The notes beneath the pieces are model-generated. The model did not search any database. It was given only the letters and a program-made list of their open reading frames with translations, and was not told the origin of the DNA. Below, in pieces: positions 16,271-18,445 of a stretch of 64,000 nt of DNA. This stretch comes from Clostridia bacterium. Its GTDB lineage: Bacteria; Bacillota; Clostridia; Christensenellales; Aristaeellaceae. The DNA lies in assembly GCA_017502305.1 (NCBI GenBank), contig JAFVVG010000024.1, forward strand, positions 1-64,000. The letters are read 5' to 3'. How positions within the stretch are numbered: position 1 is the stretch's first letter; each line of letters opens with the position of its first letter. Made by a program: the position numbers and the translations under genes.

Positions 16271-16297
16271 AAAAAGCGGCGTGCACATACACGCCGC
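16271..16297 (-). terminator. Terminator after the CotJ genes
   Basis: On the minus strand GCGGCGTG / CACGCCGC with a six-base loop is followed by TTTTTG, shortly after the CotJC stop. Confidence 0.85.
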
Positions 16298-16316
16298 AGG
16301 AATATTATGCCTGGGA

Positions 16317-16925
16317 TTACTTGCCGCATCCGCACTGGAAAGCCGGGTTGAAGGCGTAGAAGTTTTTCTCCTCCAGTCGATCCTGCACCAGGGCCAGGGC
16401 CTCGGCGAAGCGTTGATAATGGACGATCTCCCGGGCCCGCAGGAACCGCAGTACGTCAATGACGTCCGGGTCATCGGCCAGGTGGATCAGGTTCTCGTAG
16501 GTGGTGCGGGCCTTCTGCTCTGCTGCAAGATCCTCGTGCAGGTCGGTGATGGGGTCGCCCTTCACGGCCATGGCGGCGGCATGATAAGGCTGACCACTGG
16601 CAAACTGGGGGTACACGCCCAGGCCGTGATCGGTGAAATAGGGGGCGAAGGCGCTGTCCTGGATCTGGCAGTCGGAAAGGTCGCGGGTGAGCTGATGAAT
16701 CATGCTACCAACCATCTCCAGGTGTCCAAGCTCCTCGGTGCCGATGTCGGTGAGGAGGCCCTTCAGTTCGTCATAGGGCATGGAGTAACGCTGGCTCAGG
16801 TAACGCAGGGAGGCGCCCAGCTCGCCATCGGGTCCGCCGTATTGGCTGATGATCACCGAGGCCATGCGCTGGTCGGGCTTACGGATGCGAACGGGATACT
16901 GCAGCTGTTTTTCATAGACAAACAT
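16317..16925 (-). CDS. cotJC: Spore coat protein CotJC, manganese-catalase family
   Basis: 202 residues of the CotJC/manganese catalase family, a ferritin-like four-helix bundle. Di-metal ligand motifs are seen at EELGHLEMVG and DLAAEQKARTTYENL, with a third cluster at LRAREIVHYQRFAEAL. CotJC is an inner spore-coat component in Bacillus and Clostridia and may remove peroxide. The C-terminus ends in CGCGK, an unusual Cys-rich tail. The start lies 3 bases after the stop of the CotJA-CotJB fusion gene, so they form an operon. Confidence 0.92.
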   Translation of the reverse strand: MFVYEKQLQYPVRIRKPDQRMASVIISQYGGPDGELGASLRYLSQRYSMPYDELKGLLTDIGTEELGHLEMVGSMIHQLTRDLSDCQIQDSAFAPYFTDHGLGVYPQFASGQPYHAAAMAVKGDPITDLHEDLAAEQKARTTYENLIHLADDPDVIDVLRFLRAREIVHYQRFAEALALVQDRLEEKNFYAFNPAFQCGCGK

Positions 16926-16928
16926 GGC

Positions 16929-17642
16929 TTATGCTTCCTTTCCGCAGCAATGCTGATATTCCCAGGGCCAGGGGCCTTCTGTCCAGGACCAGCGGTTGCC
17001 GCAATCCGGGTTGAAGGCGCAGCCGCAGTCTTCGTCCATCTGGGAGACGAGCTTGCGCATCAGCGCCTGGGCCTGCTGGTCGCAGGGGTGGGTGTTCAGG
17101 TACAGCCGCAGTTCCCAGATGGCGAATTTGTCCGCCTGGCACTGGGTAAAGCAGGGGTTTTCCATGCAGCGCTCGTGGCACATGGGTTTGTCGAGGCAGC
17201 CAAACAGCGTGCCGCGGAACAGGGCCTTTTCGGCGCAGTAGAGGGAATCCAGATCATGATGGGCGGCATAAACCATGGCGGGGGTATGGCCGTTGCAGCG
17301 AGTGTTGCCGGCGTGATGCTGGCAGGTGCAGTTGTCATTGCCGCAGCGGGAGCAGGGCTTGGTCTGGTAGCAGCCGTCGTCGCAGGCGGAGCGGTTCTGG
17401 CAGGTGCAGTTGTCATTGCCGCAGCGGGAGCAGGGCTTGGTCTGGTAGCAGCCGTCGTCGCAGACGGAGTGGTTCTGACAGGTGCAGTTCACCTGGCCGC
17501 AGCGGGAGCAGGGCTGGGTACGCTGATTTTCGCAGGCGGTATAGCGGGGCTGCCGGGCGCCGCAGCCGCAGCCGGCGGAGCGGCTCTGGCCTGCTCCGCG
17601 GGCGTCGCCGTCGATGCTGACGCCAATATATTCATTACGCAT
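16929..17642 (-). CDS. Cysteine-rich CotJA-CotJB fusion spore-coat protein
   Basis: 237 residues, about 32 of them Cys. Residues 43-120 hold three roughly 26-residue repeats (PCSRCGNDNCTCQN..CDDGCYQT). Residues 122-155 (MVYAAHHDLDSLYCAEKALFRGTLF) resemble CotJA, with its AL-x-x-GTLF core. Residues 172-230 (AIWELRLYLNTHPCDQQA..., then WSWTEGPWPWEYQ) match CotJB. CotJA and CotJB are normally separate small proteins encoded just before cotJC; here they are one polypeptide with extra Cys repeats, followed by cotJC. It is expected in the mother cell or spore coat, where the cysteines could cross-link or bind metal. The fusion is my inference from motif matches. Confidence 0.8.
   Translation of the reverse strand: MRNEYIGVSIDGDARGAGQSRSAGCGCGARQPRYTACENQRTQPCSRCGQVNCTCQNHSVCDDGCYQTKPCSRCGNDNCTCQNRSACDDGCYQTKPCSRCGNDNCTCQHHAGNTRCNGHTPAMVYAAHHDLDSLYCAEKALFRGTLFGCLDKPMCHERCMENPCFTQCQADKFAIWELRLYLNTHPCDQQAQALMRKLVSQMDEDCGCAFNPDCGNRWSWTEGPWPWEYQHCCGKEA
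17321..17520 (-). repeat. 78-base tandem repeat inside the CotJA-CotJB gene
   Basis: Copies start at 17321, 17399 and 17477. The first two are nearly identical; the third is partial and diverged. The period of 78 bases equals 26 codons and matches the protein repeat, so copy number could change by slippage without breaking the frame. Confidence 0.85.
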
Positions 17643-17668
17643 AGGAGCTTCATCCTTTCTGTGGAAAT

Positions 17669-17685
17669 TGCAGGCGGTGCCTGCA
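17669..17685. other. Small hairpin upstream of the CotJ operon
   Basis: TGCAGGC-GGT-GCCTGCA, 27 bases upstream of the ATG. No sporulation-sigma promoter could be recognised with confidence nearby. Confidence 0.4.
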
Positions 17686-17716
17686 TGATCAGACTATGCG
17701 CGGGAACGCCGGACGT

Positions 17717-17746
17717 GAAAAATCCCCTGCGCAAGGCAGAGGGGAT
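17717..17746 (-). terminator. Terminator of the VanY-pyruvyltransferase-phosphatase operon
   Basis: On the minus strand ATCCCCT / AGGGGAT followed by TTTTT, 13 bases after the phosphatase stop. Confidence 0.8.
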
Positions 17747-17758
17747 GGAAGTGCGTTT

Positions 17759-18445
17759 TCAGTTGCCGAAGTAGTTTTCCACGGTCATGCCCTGGATGTG
17801 TTTGGCATCGTTGAGCATCTGGAAGCGGGGAGTCACCAGGGCGCCGGGGGTATCCGGCAGGGTGACGATGGTGATGCCGGTGTAATCCGGCCCCATGGTG
17901 GTGCACACCAGGGGGAAGGGCAGGTTGAACAGGTGGCTGAGGATGGCGGTGGAGGCGCCGCCGTGGCCGAAGGCCGCAACGGTTTGGGGCGGCGTGCCGG
18001 TCACCTGGTAGTAGTGACCCTCCCGGGTATAGCCCAGGCCTTGCAGCCATTCATCGGTGCAATGGGCAATGTTTTCCACGCACTGCACCACGGAATTGCG
18101 GCGGAAGATCTCGCCTGTGGCCCAAGTGGGATCCATCAGGGGCTGCCCCTGAGCCACCATGCGGTCGGCGGTATCCCAGGGGTGGCCGTTCAGGGGAAGC
18201 TCCTCCCCGTTTGTGCCGCCCCAGGTGATCTCCCGCATGAAATCACACTTCACAATGGGGAGCCCCAGCGTTTCCGCCAGGTGAGAGGCGGTTTCATAGG
18301 CCCGGCCGCAGGTGGAGGAGAAGATCTGCTCGATGCCCTCGTTCTTCAGGCGAAGGGCGGCGGCCGCGGCGTGCTTCACGCCCAGCTCCGTCAGGCAGTC
18401 GCGCTCGTAATTGGGATGACCGTGGCGGACAAAAAAGATGCGCAT
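17759..18445 (-). CDS. Histidine phosphatase (phosphoglycerate mutase-like) family protein
   Basis: 228 residues starting at the ATG at 18445 (MRIFFVRHGHPN). The RHG motif with catalytic His8 is at the N-terminus and a second catalytic His is in AAFGHGGAS. GCGAGG precedes the start; the upstream open frame is only an extension over the intergenic region. The substrate is not evident: family members act on phospho-sugars, nucleotides or phosphoproteins. It is the last gene of a three-gene operon, 16 bases after a pyruvyltransferase. Confidence 0.82.
   Translation of the reverse strand: MRIFFVRHGHPNYERDCLTELGVKHAAAAALRLKNEGIEQIFSSTCGRAYETASHLAETLGLPIVKCDFMREITWGGTNGEELPLNGHPWDTADRMVAQGQPLMDPTWATGEIFRRNSVVQCVENIAHCTDEWLQGLGYTREGHYYQVTGTPPQTVAAFGHGGASTAILSHLFNLPFPLVCTTMGPDYTGITIVTLPDTPGALVTPRFQMLNDAKHIQGMTVENYFGN

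Follow-up and report, generated by a model that had tools for sequence, protein, structure and literature searches.

The window analyzed here, a stretch of 64,000 nucleotides from an Aristaeellaceae genome (contig JAFVVG010000024.1, assembly GCA_017502305.1), encodes the spore-coat proteins CotJA and CotJB as one continuous chain that begins with a Cys-rich repeat array and lies directly ahead of an intact cotJC. From sequence comparisons, we lean towards a one-chain CotJA/CotJB adaptor of the spore coat that would be transcribed with cotJC from a sigma-K-type promoter, pack CotJC, and be disulfide-linked. In relatives, the neighboring cotJC is itself split by recombinase-bearing elements. See Table 1 for the coordinates of all features.

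CotJA and CotJB share a single open reading frame

The earlier note on this DNA had read a CotJA-like core and a CotJB domain in one 237-residue chain, and Pfam and profile searches bear this out for both domains. CotJB (PF12652) was matched clearly by hmmscan over residues 166–228, with an E value of 5.5e-11 and 42.9 bits against a cut-off of 29. CotJA (PF11007) was matched over residues 121–153 with an E value of 3.4e-5 and 24.1 bits, which is 0.9 bits under its cut-off of 25; in a six-frame search of the genome, the same stretch scored 26.9 bits and passed the cut-off. Additionally, a profile built from ten fused CotJA parts matched one built from five stand-alone CotJA proteins in the same family with a probability of 98.7% and an E value of 3.6e-16. 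The full protein had no match in NCBIfam, and no solved structure matched the fused core. A structure prediction of the core, allowing two sequences, gave a pLDDT of 45.7, too poor to show contacts.

The genome holds one CotJA match and one CotJB match, and both fall within this reading frame. CotJA is not a separate small protein here but is joined in frame to CotJB, and no separate cotJA or cotJB was found elsewhere in the assembly. Neither of the two outcomes that the earlier note had set as refuting its reading was thus seen. With the assembly at 87% completeness, a second copy of either gene is unlikely, yet possible. A 497-amino-acid antisense frame (16281–17774, plus strand) that overlaps cotJC in part and the fusion gene in full was set aside as probably an artefact of high GC content.

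Table 1. Features of the fused gene, its operon, and the uninterrupted cotJC sites in the window
Feature	Position	Strand	Basis or comment
Fused CotJA-CotJB gene with N-terminal Cys array, 237 aa	16929..17642	-	Single ORF, Pfam and profile matches
CotJA core, residues 121-153	17184..17282	-	Pfam (hmmscan, genome search), profile-profile match
CotJB domain, residues 166-228	16959..17147	-	Pfam
Cys array, residues 25-118, three CSRCG-type units	17289..17570	-	Composition conserved, sequence not
78-bp tandem repeat, 2.6 copies, in frame, 93% matches	17319..17519	-	Tandem Repeats Finder
cotJC, manganese-catalase-like coat protein, 202 aa, intact, CxC tail	16317..16925	-	Mn_catalase E 7.3e-54
Sigma-K-type promoter motif	17691..17716	-	-35 AC 17715-17716; -10 CATAGTCT 17691-17698; kept in homologues
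Empty equivalent of insertion site A in cotJC, TTGCAGCA-GA-GCAGAAGG, codon of E136	16503..16528	-	Uninterrupted; split in relatives
Empty equivalent of insertion site B in cotJC, codons 61-65, IGTEE (E65)	16731..16745	-	Uninterrupted; split in other families
Empty equivalent of insertion site C in cotJC, codons 33-35, DGE (GGPDGE, E35)	16821..16829	-	Uninterrupted; split in G1039

The fusion is conserved in the genus and rare elsewhere

Next, we looked for the fused protein in other genomes, most of them fragmented assemblies. It is present in 16 of the 18 genomes of the genus and in two sister genera (family genera g1, g14, and g16) and is rare elsewhere. Because the same two domains recur as single reading frames in these 16 genus genomes, and in a public record (L003) at 56% identity, the fused frame is not a frameshift artefact. 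Among 396 genomes of the order, stop-free matches over both domains were confined to g1 and g14. Elsewhere in the order, CotJA and CotJB are not joined; in some cases they share a frame but are divided by a stop codon, and such same-frame neighbors suggest how the fusion arose. A sample of 398 genomes of the phylum contained at least two further stop-free fusions (G730 and G738), both lacking the Cys array. We found no description of a CotJA-CotJB fusion in the open-access literature. One member of the genus (G024, 94% complete) has SpoIVA, no match to CotJA or CotJB, and only residues 64–186 of CotJC.

The fusion gene heads a cotJ-type operon

As in the cotJ operon of B. subtilis and clostridia, the two domains are encoded ahead of a manganese-catalase homologue, and a promoter motif of mother-cell type is shared as well. 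The gene for CotJC begins 3 bp downstream of the fusion gene, which agrees with the pairing suggested earlier. The arrangement differs from that operon in that CotJA and CotJB form one chain, a Cys-rich repeat array stands in front of them, and the CotJC tail carries Cys. Alignment to 1jku, using the positions that we take to be its di-manganese ligands, indicates that the CotJC of the window keeps all five (E35, E65, H68, E136, and H169). At least two Cys were found in the CotJC tail of eight of the nine genus members with an intact gene. Such tails are rare in other genera, with hardly any in g14 or in those relatives whose cotJA and cotJB are separate.

Upstream of the fused gene, AC-N16-CATAnnnT was found in 17 of 19 homologues and AC-N15/17-CATAnnnT in the other two; shuffling gave an expectation of 2.2 of 19 for the -10 element alone. 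This pattern is the sigma-K-type consensus, and from the motif and the gene order, the fusion and cotJC are predicted to be transcribed together. SpoIVA is encoded in this genome and in 15 of the 18 genus genomes in all, so by gene content these organisms are spore formers.

The cysteine array keeps its composition while its repeats change

The reading frame contains exactly 32 Cys (estimated before at about 32), with 20 in residues 1–118, 5 in residues 119–165, and 7 in the remainder. The three CSRCG-type repeats noticed ahead of the CotJA core have their motifs at residues 45, 71, and 97. Tandem Repeats Finder gave a period of 78 bp, confirming a frame-preserving repeat. Copy number, which had been suspected to vary between strains, varies between species. 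The units vary in sequence and length, with 2.4 to 8.8 copies and periods of 78 bp here, 99/108 bp in L040, 54 bp (8.8 copies) in L016, and 57 bp (5.6 copies) in L018. All periods are multiples of three and keep the frame; L035 has no tandem repeat. The first two units of the window differ at 8 nucleotides, affecting one synonymous and five non-synonymous codons. Throughout this turnover, Cys makes up 11–17% of the stretch ahead of the CotJA core in 15 of 16 genus members. Arrays also occur in genera g14 and g16. One fusion within the genus (L045, from G089) has almost no Cys, and the array is therefore not required for the fusion.

A composition that is maintained while the sequence turns over is more in keeping with cross-linking than with a fixed metal site. 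We consider it unlikely that the array is a low-complexity extension, loosely constrained and of little function, with only the CotJA-CotJB part mattering. Such an extension would account for the fast turnover of units, for L045, and for the mainly non-synonymous codon differences between the first two units, but it would not account for the steady Cys content within the genus or for the arrays of g14 and g16. A metallothionein-like store for manganese or another metal, from which CotJC or the coat would be loaded, is rather improbable, since Cys spacing is wholly different between species at constant content (unusual for a metal site), manganese sites seldom use Cys, and the array has no Pfam match, despite CxxC and CxC motifs with acidic residues in several species and a neighboring manganese-catalase homologue with its full set of ligands.

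We favor the one-chain adaptor described above. The fusion and cotJC would be transcribed late in the mother cell, and the CotJA/CotJB part would bind and place CotJC, as proposed for the separate proteins elsewhere. The array, evolving by in-frame turnover of its repeats, may form disulfides internally as well as to the coat and to the Cys-tailed CotJC, and the products of the operon would thereby become one cross-linked unit. Here, we infer the coat location of the fusion, its placing of CotJC, and the disulfide linkage. What stood of the first reading is the fusion, its pairing with CotJC, and the absence of separate cotJA and cotJB genes; as it proposed, the Cys may cross-link the coat or, less probably, load metal into it. 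Neither the Cys array nor the Cys tail is essential, because the L045 fusion nearly lacks Cys and g14 fusions mostly lack Cys in the CotJC tail. The fusions of G730 and G738, which have no array, also count against the favored reading, and so does the report that the catalase activity of CotJC is seemingly unimportant for coat assembly in B. subtilis (PMC3533761). Other Cys-rich proteins of spore surface layers include CdeC and CdeM of C. difficile and CotY and ExsY of the B. cereus group, which are reported to self-assemble or to play a structural role. We liken the array to these without claiming homology; here, unlike in those proteins, it is joined to CotJA-CotJB.

cotJC is split at one site in family relatives

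In several relatives, the cotJC beside the fusion ends after residue 135, and in all eight genomes first tested, the 3′ part of the gene was found elsewhere. A search with a CotJC profile showed cotJC in two pieces, split at residues 136/137 (site A), in 12 of 47 family genomes belonging to genera g1, g14, and g30. In a 13th (G235), the 3′ piece alone was clear. At the split family loci (L058, L059, L123, and L124; L060–L071 and L125–L129), cotJC adjoins the fusion or, in g30, separate cotJA and cotJB genes. Of the 13 genomes, 11 have homologous large serine recombinases next to the 3′ piece. Against known phage records, the site-A recombinase had only relatives below 60% identity. It has no match in the window's own genome, where cotJC is intact, so the result on elements concerns the relatives.

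In four site-A cases, both pieces are on the same contig, separated by elements of 9,150, 11,179, 10,872, and 11,300 bp. At their junctions, GCAGCAGA is common to both ends in three of the four (12 bp in G084), and G237 shares only CAGA. Joining the flanks gives a full CotJC reading frame in all four. The cargo of L058 (2078–9533) includes, by eye, a signal-peptidase-like frame and several similar frames that look TasA-like, and is unlike that of L059 or L123.

Three sites in cotJC carry elements across the phylum

We then extended the search to a sample of the phylum. Among about 200 genomes with CotJC, leaving out weaker manganese-catalase matches, 13 had cotJC split at places unexplained by contig ends (G730, G831, G728, G881, G817, G996, G906, G702, G977, G754, G1042, G856, and G1039; loci L163–L190). 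Breaks in G668, G1012, and G872, and the site-A break in G906, coincide with contig edges and were left out, as was G1044, where the 3′ piece alone was found. Taking family and phylum together, the elements are about 3–60 kb long, carry large serine recombinases, and use three sites. By the alignment to 1jku, sites A, B, and C each code for a di-manganese ligand. Site A is used outside the family in G856, G881, and G817, and three genes (G881, G817, and G1039) each appear to contain two elements.

A recombinase was found in 12 of these 13 genomes, often within 60 nt of the junction. In G996, the 53-kb element has genes for a phage tail sheath and a DnaB-like protein. The 22-kb element of G728 (L165, G728:C13), between two cotJC pieces, carries genes for an Fe-hydrogenase, MTHFR, and formate-tetrahydrofolate ligase; these metabolic genes thus sit in a possibly excisable element. 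From these two cargos, it follows that prophages and non-phage islands both use cotJC. Simple matching resolved no direct repeats at site B. Several pairs of pieces in the phylum set lie on different contigs, and restoration of the frame covers the four site-A cases only.

Excision of the elements during sporulation is probable

We think it probable that elements excised during development have repeatedly targeted cotJC across the clostridial phylum, a target so far undescribed. With three recombinase sites on di-manganese ligand codons, a split gene could not make active catalase before rearrangement in the mother cell, where the recombinase-bearing elements of the relatives would be removed and cotJC rejoined; one gene may carry two elements. 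We observed the split structure directly, as well as restoration of the frame in the four site-A cases on one contig, and from these we infer excision and its timing.

The elements resemble skin, gin, vfbin, vrin, yin, and SP-beta, which likewise place a serine-recombinase element inside a sporulation gene and have short direct repeats at which joining restores the frame, as at site A of the relatives (PMC5595907, PMC4191935, PMC6957869, PMC10747680). They differ from these in their target, cotJC, with three alternative ligand sites and up to two elements per gene. In the open-access papers found, the named targets of intervening elements are sigK, spoVFB, spoVR, spsM, gerE, and yabG, with cotJC not among them; this does not prove priority, and cotJC appears to be a target of skin-like elements that has gone unreported. 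We rejected C. difficile phage phi027 as an example, as published accounts place it beside, not inside, a CotJC-like gene.

Alternatively, ordinary integrated mobile elements may simply destroy cotJC with no developmental excision, which we regard as possible, if doubtful. Some site-A recombinases are almost identical between species, as expected from recent transfer. The insertion may therefore be recent, the intact 3′ pieces may just be young, and their pN/pS of 0.27, compared with 0.21 in intact genomes, argues only weakly that they are still functional. A sigma-E/K -10 motif precedes the site-A recombinase in L058 only, and loss of CotJC causes no clear defect in B. subtilis (PMC12122855). 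Against plain destruction, the 3′ pieces remain open at this pN/pS, the recombinases are intact and in most cases close to a junction, every site-A case on one contig rejoins in frame, and excision during sporulation is known for the elements in sigK, gerE, spsM, and spoVFB.

Implications for the spore coat

The fusion ties CotJA and CotJB into one chain, which supports the view that the two act jointly on CotJC and makes them testable as one protein. As the repeat unit and its number differ between species and one species has almost no Cys, the arrays provide a natural series for studying the role of cysteines in coat proteins. If the split cotJC of the relatives is rejoined in sporulation, it would be a further common target of programmed DNA rearrangement, with many separate cases to compare.
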